From assembly GCA_026874595.1 (NCBI GenBank), contig CM049322.1, positions 39,922,840-39,986,839 on the forward strand: a stretch of DNA of 64,000 nucleotides. The letters run 5' to 3'. The notes beneath the pieces were generated by a model that was given only the letters and a program-made list of their open reading frames with translations, was not told the DNA's origin and ran no database searches. This document shows, in pieces, positions 856 to 46,500 of the stretch; position 1 is the stretch's first letter; every line of letters begins with the position of its first letter. Source of the stretch: Sipunculus nudus (Eukaryota > Annelida > Sipuncula > Golfingiida > Sipunculidae). The position numbers and the translations under genes were made by a program.

Positions 856-2540
856 TATCATTTGATAGGGTAACACTTACTTTGTATTGTAATGCAAATG
901 CTGCAATATTATCAAATCATGGTTTTTATTTTTCACTTAAGAAAAATCACAACAACTGTCATCACAATTTTAATTTATTGTATATTTTCTCCCAAAGATA
1001 TATTTTTTTGTTGCTAACCTGTTCAGAACCTTAAACCCAATTTACCACTTCGTAATTTTACAATGCATGAAATACTTTAAAACTTTACTTTTTAATGGCA
1101 GATGGTAAAAGGTTTTTTGTTGATAATTTAATTTGTTTAACTAGATTTATATTTCTTAAGTGAGTTCTGCTGACGTCTGTACCTTTTAATGGTCCGTTGT
1201 AAGATAAGAGACCAAATTAAATTTAAGAATAGTTCTATTGAATGAGTAGTTATTGTAATGCACCCTTCTATTACAATGAGCAATGATAGAGGAAAAGGTG
1301 CAGATACCAACCTTTATAACTATCTCTAAATTGGATAACCTGCAAAAATGCAATATATATTATAAGGCGTTTGAGTAAATAGTAACTTTTTGATATTCGT
1401 AAATGCACCTACAAACATTCCTATTTTTACACACAAACAAGGGACCTATGGGTCACGGCGCTCAGCTGTTATATATGATTAAAAAATATGATTTAGGAAT
1501 GAGGCATATGCTGGTTTGGTGTGGTAATAAATATAAGCATTATTATGAGTTGTTGGTGTTTAGCTTATGTATGATTATGATATTATCTTTGGAGACAGGG
1601 AAGAGGATTGATTTCATTTATTTTATTAACAAATGGAGTACTATTGTCACACAGATTTTGACTTGGCCATATAACTTATAAGCAGAACATATGATATAAG
1701 AGTTTAACTATTTATTAAAAAAAATTACAAATATTGTCCCAAATATAATTTTTATTAAAAATAATAAGAGAATCTTATGATTTTTTAAAATGAAATATAA
1801 CTGAAATGATTATTAAAATAATATTAAAGAATATATTTATGAATGCATTCATGAATACATTTTGAAAGTATTTGGACTGGTATTCATATACTTTCATTTT
1901 TACCTGAATTCCAATTCTTTATGCAAGACATTTTATAATGGAGTACATATTCATATTCGTATTTAAATACAATTGCAAAGTTTTCCCACCATTACTGGCA
2001 TTTATTCAGTTTTCACCAAACAATTATGTTGAGAATCCAGAATATACAAAATTCACACATTTAAATTATGATCAAAAGTACCTGGTTTTATGGCTTTTAT
2101 TTATATTAAAAAAAAAAAATGTAATATATTCATTTTAGACTAATTTCACATCAATGTACACACTAGACACAGTAGGAATCTAGATTAATAATATCAACTG
2201 CATCTTTGTCTATCATTAATTTCCTTCATATGATCCCTAATGATTAGTAATGAATAATATGATTTACTTTTTTATCATTAAAATTGAACTGAAAAATACC
2301 ATAGGTGACTGCATGGTGTTATTTGGAGTACGTGACATTCTATCCATCGATACAAGATTCTTTTGTCATCAGTAACTGCAAGTTGATTTCCTGTTATTAT
2401 AAACTAACAAATTCTTTTTTATTTTTCTTTTATTTGTTATTAAAAAACAATAAAAATTTATTAATTTATTGTTAATTGTTATGTTGTTGGTTAAAACTAC
2501 TAGATGAGTTGGGTTGGACACCTGGATTAACTGTGGCTGG
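856..2540. other. Non-coding AT-rich DNA
   Basis: Very AT-rich sequence with A/T homopolymers. Short ORFs such as 1403-1681 (+) and 1938-2138 (+) look like chance openings: their composition is dominated by Ile, Phe, Leu and Tyr, and they have no splice sites or recognisable domain. Nothing else is seen. Confidence 0.5.
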
Positions 2541-2659
2541 CCATAAGCTGCCTACCTGCAACAGTGTATGGCTCGCCTCAAGCATGCATAATTTGCTGAA
2601 AGTTCAACAAGGTCAACATACAGGTGACTCAAGAGGGGCTGGAGAGAGTTAAGGTCTGA

Positions 2660-3950
2660 CATGGTCTCATAAAAACATTAATAAAAGCTACAATTTTTGG
2701 CCAATTTCTTTCAGCTTTCTAAACTATAAAGCTGAAATCCTTGTGTGCATGATATGAAAATTATATCAACCGTGCTCACAGGAAACAAATGTGCCATGGT
2801 CAAAGTTGGGCAAAATTTAAGGTACTAATTTTATATTTATACTAATCACATATAAAATTTGAAAAGTTCAGGACTAATTTGGGGTATTCAATTGAATCTT
2901 AATTAAATAATGTTACATCCCTGGCAAAAAAACTCTAGCTTCAGCAATCCCCTTGTTAAGGGTGTAAATATATTTCTTGATTTTTTACAAAGTGCATTAT
3001 GTTTGGGCCCATAACTTAAAACAATTACACAATACTGACATCATTTCTGGCATATGCATAGAGAATGTATAGAAAAATATGTATATTATATATGATTAAA
3101 GTCACATCAGTGGTTTTGATATTAGGCAGTCTTGAAGTGTAACAATGGGTTTTTAATGGAAAAATGAAGTTTTTCATTAATACCTCGAAGGTATTAAGTC
3201 CTAGTGACCAAATTCTTGGCATGGTAGGGAATTTTGGAGACATCTAATTGTATGCCAAATTTTAGGAACTGAGAGCTGAAGCTGGGGAGCTGAGCTCTTG
3301 CAAACTGCATAACACTAGCTTGATGTAAACAATTTGTTACATGGTGCTTGAAAACTTGAATAAAATCTACAGTTTTTGATCAACTGGTTTCAAATTTTTG
3401 GTGTTAACAGACAAAATGCTAACAAAAACATGCTGAGAAAATTAAATCCACAGTACTTACAGTAAAAAAACGTGCCATGGTCAAAGTTGGGCAAAATTTA
3501 GGGTACCAATTTTTTATTTTTGTTAATATTTTAAAAAATTTAAAAGATTTTGATCTAATTTTGGGTATACAATTTAATTTTGATAAATTAAAGTTATATT
3601 ACTGGGAAAAAAGTCCATAGCTTTAACAAGTTTTGTGTTAAGTGATCAAATATCTTTCCTGATTTTTTACAAAATGCATTATGTTTGGGCCCATAACTTT
3701 TTTAAATTATATAATACAGAAATAATTTCTGGCATGTACATAGGAACTATATAGAAGAATATTTATGGTAAATATGAGGGAAAACAGATGAGTGTTTTGA
3801 TATTAGGCAGTCCTGAAGTGTGAAAATAGGTTTTTAATAAAAAATTGAGGTTTTTCCTTAATTTCTCAAAGGAACGAAGTCGCAAAGACCCAGTTTTCGG
3901 CTTGGTAGGAGATCTTGGGGACATCTAACATTATGCTGAATTTTGGATTC
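2660..3950. repeat. Two-copy direct repeat, 681-bp period
   Basis: GTGCCATGGTCAAAGTTGGG occurs at 2791 and again at 3472, exactly 681 bp apart. The similarity runs on through TTTGGGCCCATAACTT, TTTTGATATTAGGCAGTC and GGCATGGTAGG/GGCTTGGTAGG, keeping the same spacing to the end near 3950. The copies are substantially diverged. The array leads directly into the GGAC microsatellite and hairpin at 3984-4081, so all three may be parts of one mobile element. ORFs inside it, such as 3025-3243 (-), are repeat shadows. Confidence 0.75.
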
Positions 3951-14589: not shown

Positions 14590-14940
14590 ACCTTCAGTCC
14601 CTAGACATTTGGGTTACTTTAGGTGTATATTTTGTTCATTATCACTTACTCCCTTGATATTTGACATTTAGGCCATTTCAGGTAGATGTTTGGTTCTTAA
14701 TTTTTTCTCTCCCTGAATATTTGGGTCATTTTGGGTGGATATTTGGTTCATTATTCTCTCTGTTCCTGGACTTTTGGGTCATTTTGGTTGTAAATTTAGT
14801 GCACTGGTCTTTCTGTCCCTGGACATTTGGGTCATTTTTAGGTGTACATTTGGATGATTGTTGTTCACTGACACTGGACATTTTGGTCATTTTGGGTGCA
14901 CATTTGGTGCATTGGTATTTCTATCACTAGACAATTTGGT
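14590..14940 (+). repeat. Minisatellite, about seven copies of 54 bp
   Basis: The unit is GACATTTGGGTCATTTTGGG, then TGTACATTTGGTTCATTG, then TCTTTCTGTCCCTG. Copies start near 14600, 14655, 14711, 14766, 14820, 14876 and 14929. Because 54 is a multiple of three, one frame stays open as a degenerate 18-residue repeat, which explains the 89-codon ORF at 14661-14930. Copies are diverged and nothing suggests translation. Confidence 0.75.
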
Positions 14941-28796: not shown

Positions 28797-29194
28797 ACTG
28801 GTATGGAATGATAGAGAACAATTATCTGGGCATCAGCAAGGGTGATGGGTGTGCTTCTGTTAATTAGTCATATTAGTGGAACTCCCCAAAGTGGCACTAT
28901 TCTGTGAGTGCTACACAGCTCTGGGGCACAGTCTTCCAGTTAAGGCTGAAAAGCACTCACTCTTGAGATAACCTAAACCAAAAAAGCCAGTAATTTTAAC
29001 AAAATCACATATTTGTCATATGTGGTCCAGACTTTTTGGAGGTCATTTGGAAAAATAATTTGAAAATGTAAAAAAAAAAAAAATGAAAATGTCCAAAGGA
29101 ATTTCCAAATTCATTTAGGTTTAAGGTCATAAGGTCATAACAAATGTTAAGGTAATAAATGATGACATTCCAGGTGATCTTTTGAGCTTTTATT

Positions 29195-38690: not shown

Positions 38691-40120
38691 CACTTATTCC
38701 ACTAAATAATATCATAATGCATTAATTTATCTTATTAAATACTGAAACATTTTAAACACCTTAGTTAACTATGCAACTATTTTAATTCCAGTGATCATTA
38801 TTCAATAAGAGACCATGATGCAAGCTTTATGTTTATAAACCACTAGAATAAAGATATAATTAATTATTTAATAAATACATAAATATAAATTTATTAATAA
38901 ACTGGATAAACTCTTTAACAAGATAACGCTCATGATGATATATTGAAAACCTTGAAATCCAGAAGACCTAAGCAAGTCACTGAATGAAGAAAATGCAAAT
39001 AAGGAATATTTGGCAATGCTCATAAAAAAGTTGAAAAGGACAAAAAAATCATTTTAAGAAAGCATAGCCACAGGAACTTCACCCCAGCGAGTGCAGGTAT
39101 TTCCTTAACAAGCCGTACTTTGAGCCGAGGTTCTGTTTATGGAGTAGTTTGTTTAGTGGTAAGTCAGCAGACTTTACTTTGTATCTAGCTAGCTCCTGTT
39201 GCAGTCTCCTTGGTGTGACGCCTATTTTGATAACAGCCATGCAGCTGCTGTCGCAAGTTTTTAGATCCAGTACACTCCCAAAACGGAGCCACAATGCTTT
39301 TTAGGTCCAACACAAACTGATAATAGCAGCATAAAAAGTGTGACCAAGTTCTACACCGGTTTAGGATTACGTCTGCCCACTCCTACCACTTAAGGTAAAG
39401 ATAGACTGTTGCTGTTTTTCAGTCATTTTGGTTTGACTTTAAGCATGGTACATTGATACAACCCCACGCAGCCTCCCACGTTTTTAAACAAAGATGACTT
39501 GTCTTTCCTTTGATAAGTCTTCGTTTATTATTCCAGACATGGCAGAACTAATTTTAATGGCTTAAACCACCCACTATCTCCCAACTCCTTAAGGATTAAG
39601 ATTATATTTTTTCTTTTGTTCTGGAATTTTGTATCATACACTAACATCACATAAAAATCTTCAAACTTTTTAATGGAGATTTCCTTCTCAGACCTTCAGT
39701 TAATATTCAGGGTTTAATGGATAAAATTTACAACAACAAAAAATGGTTGTTCTTGTTTCATTTATGGCATTTGATCTTTACTGTAAAGGAATGTTCAATC
39801 TTTGAAATTGCTTGCCTCTTTACGTCAGTCAAGGAGATTGTGTTATTACCTGTGTTCATAAATAAATTATGGTGCAGATCCAGATGAAGGGGTCTGCTAA
39901 GCACTTTTCTTATTGTAGAAATTCATCATTATCAGTATATGACATTTACAATAGATTTAACAATAAGTAGATTTTGCAGTTTTGATGACCTTTCAGTTGA
40001 AATTTAATTTGAGCTATTAGGGATCAGATATCAAAACCGTGATATAATCTGCTTCAGTATCACAGGCATATTATTGTATCCCCAGACAAAGTCGGGGGAT
40101 ACTATGTTTTCATACCGGTC

Positions 40121-40142
40121 CCGCCGCCGCCGCCGCCGCCGC
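40121..40142. repeat. (CCG)n microsatellite in the 5' end of the Helitron-like element
   Basis: Seven GCC/CCG triplets, unusually GC-rich for this window, about 40 bp from the element's 5' terminus. Confidence 0.9.
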
Positions 40143-40179
40143 ATATGAATCTTGTTGGCGAGATAACCCAGAAAAAATT

Positions 40180-40700
40180 TTACGGAACTTTACCAAACTT
40201 GGTATATGTATAGATATGGGTAAGAGGACGACGCCTATTTAAAATGAGGTCATGACCTTTACTAGGAGAGTGTCCTTGACCTTGAATAGGTCCAATTTTG
40301 GGGAAAATCACACAAATTCTTTAATATCTCAAGAAATCTTGCATGGATTTATCCCAAAATCAAGTTGATGGAAGATCATGGATAGGGTTGTCATGTTCCA
40401 GAAACTGGTGGCGCCACCTATTATTCTTTACTTTTTTTCGTGCCGTTTAATACCCCCTAAATTGCCACCTTACAGCACTGTGAGCATTATAAGTCAAAAA
40501 CTAATGGACAGATTTCTTTTATATTATGCATATACATAGGTATGGGTTATGGGATGATGCTTATTTAAATTGGGGTCATGACCTTTCCTATGATAGTGGC
40601 CTTGACCTTGAATATTGCCATATATGGTGAAAATCACACACCTCTTATGATATCTCCAGTGTTGATAGCCATATGGATTTCAAACATGACTTATGTATGG
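40180..40700 (+). repeat. 5' subrepeats of the Helitron-like element, about 327-bp period
   Basis: CATGACCTTT (40251 and 40578), the phrase CCTTGACCTTGAAT and the phrase GAAAATCACACA recur in the same order about 327 bp apart. Both copies carry receptor half-sites in inverted orientation (TGACCTT) facing GAGGTCA. This domain is more diverged than the array that follows. Confidence 0.65.
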
Positions 40701-40729
40701 CCCACCACTAAAGTAAGAACCCTATAGGT

Positions 40730-43400
40730 TCTAGGGTCATGAGGTCAAAGGTCAAGGTCACTGGACTGGCATTTTAAAAGATACTTTGGATGCATTTTAA
40801 GCCAAACTTTCATCCCAGGTTTTCCATCTTGAATATATAGCTCACTTGCCAATAATGGATGATCCATATAAATTTTGGGGTCACAAGGTCAAAGGTCAAG
40901 GCCACAGGAGCTATCTGTCCAAAAATTAGTTTCTGGATGATAATTCCTGCTTTTATTGATGTAATGATTTCACAATTTACTTATATATGTCCCATTGAAA
41001 AAGCAAGACTCAAATTGATTTTGGGGTCATGAGGTCAAAGGTCAAGGTCACAGGAAACCTCTATAAAAAGATTGTGGATGCATTTTCAGCCAAACAATTC
41101 ATCTCAGATCTTTCATCTTGCACATATAGTTCACCTGCCAAGAGTGGAAGACCCCTATCAATTTTGAGGTCACAAGGTCAAAGGTGAAGGTCACAGGAGC
41201 CATATGTCCAAAAATTAGTTTCTGGATGATAATTCCTGCTTTTATTGATGTATGGATTTCAAACTTGACTTATATATGTCCCATTGGAAAAGCAAGACCC
41301 AAATTGATTTTGGGGTCATGAGGTCAAAGGTCAAGGTCACAGGACACATCTTTAAAAAGATGTGGATGCATTTTCAGCCAAACATTTCATCTCAGACCTT
41401 TCATCTTGCACATATAGTTCACCTGCCAAGAGAGGAAGAACCCTATCAATTTTGAGGTCACAAGGTCAAAGGTGAAGGTCACAGGAGCCATCTGTCCAAA
41501 AATTAGTTTCTGGATGATAATTCCTTCTTTTATTGATGTTTGGATTTCAAAACTTGACTTGAATTTGACCCATTGGAAAAGCAAGACCGGAATTGAATTT
41601 GGGGTCATAAGGTCAAAGGTCACAGGAAACCTCTATAAAAAGATTGTGGATGCATTTTCAGCCAAACAATTCATCTCAGATCTTTCATCTTGCACATATA
41701 GTTCACCTGCCAAGAGTGGAAGACCCCTATCAATTTTGAGGTCACAAGGTCAAAGGTGAAGGTCACAGGAGCCATATGTCCAAAAATTAGTTTCTGGATG
41801 ATAATTCCTGCTTTTATTGATGTATGGATTTCAAACTTGATTTCTATATGTCCCATTGGAAAAGCAAGACCTAAATTGATTTTGGGGTCATGAGGTCAAA
41901 GGTCAAGGTCACATCTTTAAAAAGATGTGGATGCATTTTCAGCCAAACATTTCATCTCAGGTCTTTCATCTTGCACATATAGTTCACCTGCCAAGAGAGG
42001 AAGAACCCTATCAGATTTGAGGTCACAAGGTCAAAGGTGAAGGTCACAGGAGCCATCTGTCCAAAAATTAGTTTCTGGATGATAATTCCTTCTTTTATTG
42101 ATGTTTGGATTTCAAACTTGACTTGTACTTGACCCATTGGAAAAGCAAGACCGGAATTGAATTTGGGGTCATGAGGTCAAAGGTCAAGGTCACAGGAAAC
42201 CTCTATAAAAAGATTGTGGATGCATTTTCAGCCAAACAATTCATCTCAGATCTTTCATCTTGCACATATAGTTCACCTGCCAAGAGTGAAAAACCCCTAT
42301 CAATTTTGAGGTCACAAGGTCAAAGGTGAAGGTCACAGGAGCCATATGTCCAAAAATTAGTTTCTGGATGATAATTCCTGCTTTTATTGATGTATGGATT
42401 TCAAACTTGACTTATATATGTCCCATTGGAAAAGCAAGACCCAAATTGATTTTGGGGTCATGAGGTCAAAGGTCAAGGTCACATCTTTAAAAAGATGTGG
42501 ATGCATTTTCAGCCAAACATTTCATTTCAGGTCTTTCATCTTGCACATATAGTTCACCTGCCAAGAGAGGAAGAACCCTATCAGTTTTGAGGTCACAAGG
42601 TCAAAGGTGAAGGTCACAGGAGCCATCTGTCCAAAAATTAGTTTCTGGATGATAATTCCATCTTTTACTGATGTATGGATTTCAAACTTGGCTTTGTTAT
42701 TGACCCATTAGAAAAGCAAGACCCAAATTGATTTTGGGGTCATGAGGTCAAAGGTCAAGGTCACAGGAAACCTCTTTAAAAAGATTGTGGATGCATTTTC
42801 AGCCAAACAATTCATCTCAGATCTTTCCTCTTGCACATATAGTTCACCTGCCAAGAGTGGAAGACCCTATCAGTTTTGAGGTCACAAGGTCAAAGATGAA
42901 GGTCACAGGAGCCATATGTCCAAAAATTAGTTTCTGGATGATAATTCCTGCTTTTATTGATGTATGTATTTCAAACTTGACTTGTATATGTCCCATTGGA
43001 AAAGTAAGACCAAAATTGATTTTGGGGTCATGAGGTCAAAGGTCAAGGTCACAGGACACATCTTTAAAAAGATGTGGATGCATTTTCAGTCAAACATTTC
43101 ATCTCATATCTTTCATCTTACACATATAGTTCTCCTGCCAAGAGAGGAAGAACACTATCAATTTTGTGTCACAAGGTCAAAGGTGAAGGTCACAGGAGCC
43201 ATCTGTCCAAAAATAAGTTTCTGGATGATAATTCCTGCTTTATTGATGTATAGATTTCAAACTTGACTTGCATATGTCCCATTGGAAAAGCAAGACCCAA
43301 ATTGATTTTGGGGTTATGAGATCAAAGGTCAAGGTCACAGGACACATCTTTAAAAAGATCAAGGTCACAGGACCAACATCTTCAACAAGATTGTGGATCG
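40730..43400 (+). repeat. Higher-order tandem array rich in nuclear-receptor half-sites
   Basis: The array has three nested periods. The smallest is about 145 bp: two diverged halves, one ending GAGGTCACAAGGTCAAAGGT then GAAGGTCACAGGA, the other ending GGGGTCATGAGGTCAAAGGT then CAAGGTCACAGGA. Two halves make a unit of 280-295 bp. Units alternate between type 1 (AAACCTCTATAAAAAGATTGTGG, AAGAGTGG) and type 2 (ACACATCTTTAAAAAGATGTGG, AAGAGAGG), giving a 570-bp higher-order repeat: type 1 starts at 41051, 41621, 42191 and 42761, exactly 570 bp apart. About 18 clusters contain AGGTCAAAGGTCA (DR1) or a near variant, most with AAGGTCA extended half-sites. ORFs at 41252-43266 repeat every unit and are not genes. 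Confidence 0.9.
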
Positions 43401-43502
43401 TTAGATGGAATAAACAATAAATATGCCAAGTGTCAGTATATGCTGCTAAAAATGGGGGTCTGTTCTTGTAGGAGGGGGGCCTACTATGTCTGGGGATACT
43501 CT

Positions 43503-43517
43503 GGCACCTGCGGTGCC
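43503..43517 (+). terminator. Helitron-type 3' hairpin
   Basis: GGCACC and GGTGCC form a perfect 6-bp stem around TGC, nine bases before the terminal CTAG. In Helitrons this hairpin is thought to signal the end of rolling-circle transfer. It is not a transcription terminator. Confidence 0.7.
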
Positions 43518-43530
43518 AAGAAATGTCTAG

Positions 43531-46500
43531 TTATTATTGGATACAAAATGTGATGCTGATTGTTGTGTGTTTAATCTGGCTGCTGAAAGAGTACGGAGCA
43601 ACATAGTTGAAAATGATCAATTGAATCAGTAATTGAATCAAAAGTAAAGAATGGATAATTTAATCAATTCTAAGGGCCCTCACAAATCACTGACCAAGTT
43701 ACCATACATATGGTTCATGCATAAACTAATGTTTCCTTTGAGCCTTTGGAATATTTGTTGCCAGAATTCTGACCCTGAAATTATTGATTTCTGCCGAAAT
43801 AGCAGTTAAAATTTGGAGAGGATACCATAAACTACAAAGAAAACCTAGCAAACATTCACAGACTGTAAACATTCAGGTTAGCTCTGCCTGCCAGAATAAA
43901 GGTGGGCAGTTGGATCACACTTTTTCATGAATATTGATGAGGGAAGGGGATTTTGTACTACCTTATTTGGAAATTTATTTATTGATGTGTTACATTAATA
44001 TGAAACAATCTGCCTTGGTATTAATGTAACTCAATGTTTAAACATTTTTAACATCAGGTGAAGAGACAAATAATGATTTCTGATGAAATTAGATTAGTGG
44101 GAAATCAAACTTTCATTCATGCACTTATCATATGAATTATACAGCTGCTGATGCTTCTTAATCTTATAAATACTAGAGGAAAAATTATCAAAACTTACGG
44201 TCAAAGCATATTTGCAATGCACCATTAAATTAATTCTTAGAAATCACTTAGAGGACTAAAAAGGGGCATATGTGTTTGCACAGGAGATGGGTGGGGGTTT
44301 TGAAGTACAAATAAGCTTATTGTGTCTACGTGTTTGCGCAAGATTGTTGCCGCTTATGCGCAATCTGACACCTTTCTGGTGTCGAATATTGAGGTCTATG
44401 GAGGTGGTATCTGTTATACCATATTAGGTTACTGGGTGAGTAAGACTGGCATCCCTCTGATTTGCATATTGATCACATGATCACAATTGTCACATCATAA
44501 GGGTGTACTGGTCAAGATGAATGCTTTAAAATATGGGTCAGATGAGGCATGGTCATTTAGGATTAGATCCCTGCCTCCCCAGACAAGTGTTATTTGCATG
44601 ACGGATCATGTATTTACAGGCTTCACTGACCCCTTTGACCCCCCCAGGAAATGCTCAATAATCAGCTCGATACTTCGCCAACCGAGTGATTCACACTTAG
44701 TGAGTCTGCTTTTAAAGCGATTGCCGTCATCGCAGCTGCGATGCAACCAATACAATACAGAAATTGTCTGTGTAATCCAACGATCGTGCATCCATAATCT
44801 GATTGGCTGACCACTTTATTGTCCCAGGGTTACAAAATAACAACCATCACTTCCAGAAAAAGGAAATTTCTTCGACTGACAAAACTGAGAAACCACTGGT
44901 AATGAGACACTTTTACGGAACATGACTAAATTTGGTGAAAATTCTACCCTGCGCAGGCTGTTCTAGTTGCTCACTGATTGCTAACTACAATGGCAACGAG
45001 ATGTGCTTTTTCCACCAAACTGCATCACTTGTTGAATTTGTTTGTCTAATTATAGCTATTCTTGATCATGTCATGGCAAATGACGTGAATAAACACCTGT
45101 TTACAGTAATAACGCTGCTAGATGATGATTCATCGAAAGCACCTAAGGAGGGTGCCATCTTTTTTGATGTCGTGGTAGAAAGTGTTAATCTGCGATAACA
45201 GATGTTGGTTGATTAAGAGTCGTACGAATATCTCTAGTTCAGCCTTGGGAATTTCACCCAATTTTCCTGTTCTAAAATTTCTAAATAAAGACTCAACTGG
45301 AAATAAAATTGAAATTGAAACCATGCAGAGCATATTGCATTAAATTAATGTTTGTAATCAGTTTCTCCCAAAGAAATCAAAAGATTTGAACAAAATCTTG
45401 AGGTCTTTTGTCTTGCTTTATGGGAAAGTGCCCACTCTGCTTTCATGGGTAAAATACTCTGGTACTGGTTTCATGGGAAAATTCCTGGGGGGGGTTGAGT
45501 ATTCTGCTCTTTCTGTGTATCTACAATTAAAAGCCACTGAGGCTGCTTGGAAATCTAGTTATCAAGTGGCCCAAATAAATTTTTTTTTTTTGGGGGGGGA
45601 GGGGGAATGGAGTTTTCACCTTTGCCCCCTTTGCAAAAAAATCTGGATTGGCACTTGATAATACATCATACATCAGTTGTAATGTGATACCATGCAATAT
45701 TGTTAATTCATCCAGGTTTAGAACCAACCATTGAGTAATCTGAGACCAGATCTAATTAAACCAAGATACTGCTATGCTACTGATCATGTGCAAACCGGTG
45801 TCTCCTGAAAGGTGAATAATGCACCAAGTTAAGCCTGTCAAGTGATACCTAATTTTGTCGGCCATGCTCTGGTGTAAACATGCAAAAACGCATTCCCCTG
45901 CTTTTATCCCAAAGGATAAAATTGCCGAGATGAATATGACAAAAAGTCTCTGGCAAATGAAAGTATCAAGTGGTAGAACTTGAGAATGCCTGATTGACGC
46001 TCAGAGCATTTGGATCGTATGTTAAATTACTGAACAGATGTGCACATAAAACATGAAAAGTGAAAGGGCTATTATCTTCTCTGCCTGTTATATTATGAAA
46101 AAAAATAATCATACATTATAAACATCATTTATATGCACTTTATCATTATTGCTATTGGAAAATTATTTATTTACATCTTACAAATTTATAGGCATAAGAA
46201 AATTATAAATGTTATTATATTTATAGCTTTTACATTTTACAATATAGAATGTGTTTATTTTCTTAAATTTAAATTTTGATTATAAATTTTAAAAGTTTCT
46301 TATAAGTTAATGGTCCATACAGTATTGCATGAACTCGAACAATTTTAATTTTGTATTATATACATTAATATTTAAGTTAATCAAATCCAATTAAAATTAA
46401 TGAGTAAAAACAAGAGGCCAGTTGACCATTTGAGTCGAAGAAAAACGATATGTAGCAAGGTTCATTTGCATGGATGATCCTTTTATCCTGTCAAATAATA

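Follow-up and report, generated by a model that had tools for sequence, protein, structure and literature searches.

The window analysed here, a stretch of 64,000 nucleotides of Sipunculus nudus DNA, contains a tandem array crowded with AGGTCA half-sites of the kind recognised by nuclear receptors. This locus raises the question of whether such sites are being kept and, if they are, whether it is for the transposon that carries them or for its host. It provides a clean test of these alternatives for transposon-borne regulatory sites, and the signal found lies between element lineages rather than between insertions. The array forms the middle of a whole non-autonomous Helentron (HINE), an identity which is firm. 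The features of the element are:

40075 to 43531, + strand: the whole HINE, 3457 bp, lying between T40074 and T43532
40076 to 40087, + strand: 5' subterminal inverted repeat GTATCCCCAGAC, 12 bp, 1 nt from the 5' end
40095 to 40102, + strand: GGGGATAC, the short inverted repeat of HINEs, which complements the beginning of the 5' subterminal inverted repeat
40121 to 40141, + strand: (CCG)7 microsatellite of the left flank
40247 to 40281, no strand assigned: first half-site pair of the 5' region, a AGGTCATGACCT palindrome followed by TGACC, in which the subfamilies have no fixed difference at any half-site position (0/30)
40574 to 40607, no strand assigned: the same arrangement of half-sites a second time, diverged
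40672 to 43359, + strand: central tandem array (TRF: period 289, 9.4 copies), in which units of 289 and 281 bp alternate, each pair making 570 bp; its 19 half-site clusters are found from 40735 to 43337
41025 to 41050, + strand: one of the A clusters, for illustration (GGGTCA, AGGTCA, AGGTCA, AGGTCA)
41168 to 41193, + strand: one of the B clusters, for illustration (AGGTCA, AGGTCA, AGGTGA, AGGTCA)
43488 to 43499, + strand: 3' subterminal inverted repeat GTCTGGGGATAC, the complement of GTATCCCCAGAC, 32 bp from the 3' end
43503 to 43517, + strand: 3' hairpin GGCACC-TGC-GGTGCC, 14 bp from the element end
43527 to 43531, + strand: 3' terminus CTAGT

The original prediction had placed the array inside a mobile element, and this is where it lies, although the limits of the element are wider than the coordinates first given. 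The same borders, ATTGTATCCCC on the left (ATT|G) and CTAGTT on the right (CTAGT|T), are present in 21 of 21 copies (20 fetched copies and that in the window), and CTAGTT is also found in all 20 copies that were picked solely by their 3' end. Insertion occurs at TT without target duplication, as seen at one empty site: when the flanks of the copy L007 are fused at T^T, three places of the window's uninterrupted array match the result, and none does if both Ts are kept. L007 and L042 (the latter judged by eye) are each inserted into the array of another copy, before TTGATGTATGGA. The 31-base 3' terminus occurs 3,821 times genome-wide with no more than 2 mismatches, and its reversed control 0 times. 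At one locus (L028, C1:1,405,488 to 1,421,903) several copies appear, by eye, to lie in series with a spacing of about 2.8 kb, and two 3' ends are visible there. Two sets of copies are compared below. The first consists of 20 copies picked among the best matches, which are young; the second was drawn by going through the first 100 listed 3' ends and picking roughly one in five, which gave 20 copies, every one of them located on C1 with its terminus intact. One copy, L037, is without a 5' end and was trimmed at an arbitrary point.

No transposase coding was found in the element. Its sole stop-to-stop frame of at least 110 aa is one of 113 aa within the repeats, and a coding explanation was rejected for this reason. 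The genome has 143 matches to PF14214 (Helitron_like_N), and in none of the six loci fetched with flanks from amongst these were the element termini of an autonomous Helentron partner found, or the cluster. A 9.76-kb tandem repeat (L027, C1:63,713,994 to 63,743,278) was considered as an autonomous copy and rejected, as it is without an ATG/GTG/TTG frame of at least 150 aa. Four element 3' termini lie 9,760-9,762 bp apart in this repeat, each 9.76-kb segment including a short, divergent relative of the element that is 85% identical over the first 809 bases.

The half-site content of the element is far above chance. The + strand carries 55 AGGTCA, with 9 exact DR0, 10 exact DR1, 7 exact AGGTCA-NN-AGGTCA and 10 TCAAGGTCA sites, so the predicted mixture of DR2, DR1, DR0 and extended sites is indeed present, and 19 clusters of two or more half-sites (GGTCA positions grouped by eye) were counted where about 18 had been expected. 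On both strands, the 570-bp unit contains 13 RGGTCA, 10 DR0-2 pairs and 3 TNAAGGTCA; in 1000 dinucleotide shuffles of the unit these three counts average 0.96, 0.01 and 0.05 and reach at most 5, 1 and 2. The 5' region holds two diverged copies of a separate arrangement, GGTCATGACC (AGGTCATGACCT in the first copy) followed by CCTTGACCTTGAA. Elsewhere in the window, three isolated AGGTCA pairs (DR0-DR2) lie at 29124, 29206 and 32362, and a 53/108-bp tandem repeat at 14663-14939 has recurring GGGTCA-like TTTGGGTCATTTT words; this repeat gave no BLAST match to the element.

In the window the array comprises eight units of two types in the order 12121212. The type-1 landmark CAGGAAACCTCT is found at 41051, 41623, 42193 and 42764 (spacing 572, 570 and 571 bp) and the type-2 landmark at 41346, 41911, 42481 and 43058; the alternating 570-bp array is thus as described earlier, although the last three type-1 positions then given were off by 2-3 bp. 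Neighbouring clusters are 135-147 bp apart, so that each unit consists of two half-units. The alternation had been thought to be strict. The window and 10 of the 20 best-matching copies do show it, but among the 20 C1 copies only 3 have two or more labels in alternation. The remaining C1 copies, picked by their 3' end, read for example 22, 2222, 222, 111 or 112121; the unit labels are strict, and diverged units escape labelling. Because alternation holds in only some copies, the 570-bp order is probably recent and confined to part of the family. Among the 41 elements measured, the shortest is 1139 bp and the longest 4039 bp, and many of the lengths are separated by roughly 285 or 570 bp.

The clusters had also been proposed to be the best-conserved part of the unit. 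This is upheld for the A cluster, which ranks between 3 and 20 in every set of copies, but not for the B cluster, which is ordinary in the C1 and divergent copies. The ranks come from three profiles of 257-264 windows each, which include L027 and for which the units were rotated so that no cluster stood at an edge. The A cluster ranks 7, 20 and 8 in the main subfamily (270 units), 4, 4 and 8 in the 20 C1 copies (105-106 units) and 4, 8 and 3 in the divergent copies (15-17 units), and the B cluster 19, 14 and 14, then 44, 59 and 38, then 91, 180 and 119 in the same sets. Thus, in the main (young) subfamily the two clusters rank alike and both are well kept, whereas in the other sets only A is. 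An unrotated profile (A ranks 1-3, B 48-200) was discarded, since A lay at the profile edge, where local alignment can trim mismatches. The half-units themselves are old duplicates, with spacers that align better than 500 of 500 shuffles, and they are identical at 75 of 125 spacer positions versus 19 of 20 half-site positions (uncorrected p 0.002).

Changes that separate lineages and changes confined to single copies are distributed differently. In the 5' region, the majority sequences of 14 main and 6 divergent copies differ at 59/497 spacer positions and at 0/30 half-site positions (uncorrected p 0.038; the copies are related), or, with extended motifs, at 58/483 spacer and 1/44 motif positions (uncorrected p 0.047; the copies are again related). 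Changes private to one of the 14 main copies fall on 67/497 spacer and 5/30 half-site positions (p 0.59). L032, of mixed sequence by eye, was excluded from the subfamily comparison, and L040, a shorter match, from the 5'-region alignment. For the array, 11 whole ten-unit copies were compared. Their shared changes lie at 2/492 cluster and 32/2115 array spacer positions (uncorrected p 0.048; the copies are related) and at 4/816 positions outside the array, and their private changes at 15/492, 105/2115 (p 0.07) and 23/816, respectively. In these copies the clusters are kept better than the array spacers, and no better than the element outside the array.

An equal rate of evolution in half-sites and spacers had been named in advance as evidence against the original prediction. 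After insertion the rates are indeed nearly even, an inserted copy decaying about neutrally, but between subfamilies they are not, the A cluster and the 5' half-sites being kept at the level of the lineage. Since no half-site differs between the subfamilies in the 5' region and yet private changes are evenly spread, any constraint acts during the spread of the element and not on the host after insertion.

The host genome has exons of candidate receptors for these sites. There are 67 PF00105 matches in the genome, from which 12 receptor exons were fetched and six compared with solved structures. The best solved matches of the DNA-binding-domain exons are to COUP-TF1 (L084), HNF4-alpha (L086), RXR (L090) and NR2C2 (L088), with two further exons, RXR/NR2C2-like (L083) and ultraspiracle/RXR-like (L085), giving no clear separation. 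RXR, COUP-TF and HNF4 bind AGGTCA repeats, and DR0 and TCAAGGTCA sites suit receptors of the NR6A (GCNF), FTZ-F1/SF-1 and ERR types.

Our tentative proposal, which may well be correct but is far from assured, is that this HINE lineage keeps a nuclear-receptor platform for its own spread; receptor binding and a benefit to the element are what we infer. The non-autonomous Helentron body would be mobilised by a rolling-circle transposase made elsewhere, and its array would grow or shrink in steps of units (about 285 bp) and pairs (570 bp). Those copies that spread would retain the AGGTCA core, that is, the A cluster and the GGTCATGACC and CCTTGACCTT pairs of the 5' region, whilst the spacers drift. 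Host receptors of the DR0-, DR1- or TCAAGGTCA-binding kinds would most likely occupy the clusters in cells where transposition counts, and their occupancy may keep the element open or expressed. Constraint would fall on the spreading lineage, and an inserted copy would then be left to decay about neutrally. If receptors do bind the clusters, a rolling-circle transposon leans on host hormone signalling to spread, and thousands of ready-made response elements have been laid into the genome as it did so.

The strongest alternative is an ordinary HINE array with no receptor function, a possibility to be taken seriously if somewhat doubtful. The clusters are themselves short internal repeats (AGGTCAA/AGGTCA), and recombination could therefore mimic constraint: units would misalign, exchange and convert at these repeats, so that the apparent conservation of the clusters would come from exchange being centred on them and from their restoration by slippage. 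The steps of about 285 and 570 bp in array length fit this explanation, as do the drift of the B clusters, the even spread of private changes and the satellite-like arrays described for oyster HINEs (PMC7492417). Against it, half-sites are likewise unchanged between subfamilies in the 5' region, which is not part of the array.

A second repeat family also argues against the recombination explanation: in the part read, most of its copies have just one cluster, which is nevertheless where they vary least. The genome has 22,468 occurrences of the 19-mer AGGTCAAAGGTCAAGGTCA and none of its reversed control; from the 100 places listed, 15 loci that do not resemble the HINE array were fetched. Five of these are distant relatives of HINE units (about 66-78% identical), and ten are another repeat, alignable with the HINE only around the clusters (19-249 bases of 2401-3201). 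Because the 19-mer itself had selected these first loci, 20 copies of the second family were re-picked by a 26-mer lying about 75 bp from the cluster (1,298 exact places; reversed control 0). Two adjacent half-sites are retained in 18 of the 20 (by eye), and diversity is 0.096 in the cluster versus 0.279 elsewhere (uncorrected p 0.002), columns near the probe being low by selection. Each of the eight windows listed with the lowest diversity overlaps the cluster, though the span of exactly 19 columns has rank 20 among 292. A search with the flanks of the family (40 matches) returned close copies only and was left out of the tests.

The second family (L048-L053, L057, L060-L062 and L063-L082, on C1) is large, with many of the 26-mer places among those listed crowding into C1 65.1-66.7 Mb. 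One locus (L051, C1:291,422 to about 308,439) is a tandem array, with units of 1.27-1.34 kb in the part read and one exact cluster word per unit. A short likeness before the cluster, CCTATTG-TTTTGG, is seen by eye in both the second family and the HINE, so that an old common origin is possible. A broader proposal, rather unlikely in its entirety, is that at least two repeat families, one of them a HINE, keep the same receptor platform (AGGTCAAGGTCA / TCAAGGTCA) as germline or gonad host receptors license their spread, and that the genome has thereby been seeded with more than 20,000 putative platforms that decay about neutrally.

The clusters might instead have a role in transposition itself, as binding sites for some non-receptor protein, for example a replication factor of the host or the Rep/helicase that the autonomous partner encodes. 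Constraint on spreading lineages but not after insertion, and the presence of sites in the 5' region, would suit such a role. This is nevertheless improbable, as the known transposition signals of HINEs are, from the descriptions available, their termini (PMC4067079), and the six loci fetched of the 143 Helitron_like_N matches have neither cluster nor termini. Exaptation of the copies as host enhancers or as a receptor sink is the least probable explanation, very unlikely in spite of the great number of sites genome-wide and the receptor sites borne by primate Alu repeats (PMC1785376, PMC3252374), because half-sites change after insertion about as fast as other bases, and host selection on the copies in bulk was rejected on these grounds; single co-opted copies are possible. 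Receptor occupancy that aids spread would best explain why half-sites are retained at the lineage level, with recombination close behind.

Amongst known systems, Alu is an RNA-copied SINE, unlike the present element, which is made of DNA, moves by rolling circle and has 19 clusters in its window copy. The two are alike as high-copy spreaders of AGGTCA-type receptor sites, Alu being described as carrying DR2 and HNF4 sites (PMC1785376, PMC3252374). In literature that was largely non-subscription, no report joining Helitron or HINE elements with nuclear-receptor sites was found at the level of title and abstract. In structure, the element closely resembles Cg_HINE of Crassostrea gigas, a non-autonomous Helentron described as having 11-12-bp subterminal inverted repeats, a complementary inverted repeat, a left microsatellite, a central satellite-like array, a 3' palindrome and a TT target without duplication (PMC7492417). 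In contrast to the reading given here, the main text on Cg_HINE makes no mention of nuclear receptors (PMC7492417). DINE-1 and the mite HINE families, as outlined in PMC4067079, belong to the same structural class; for mite HINEs the distance from the 3' subterminal inverted repeat to the end is put at 38-60 bp, a little more than the 32 bp of the present element. DINE-1-like elements are reported to supply binding sites for the male-specific-lethal complex in D. miranda (PMC4067079), which is a precedent for host-factor sites in the HINE class. That case, as reported, concerns another host factor and use by the host (PMC4067079), whereas the signal in the present element lies between element lineages.
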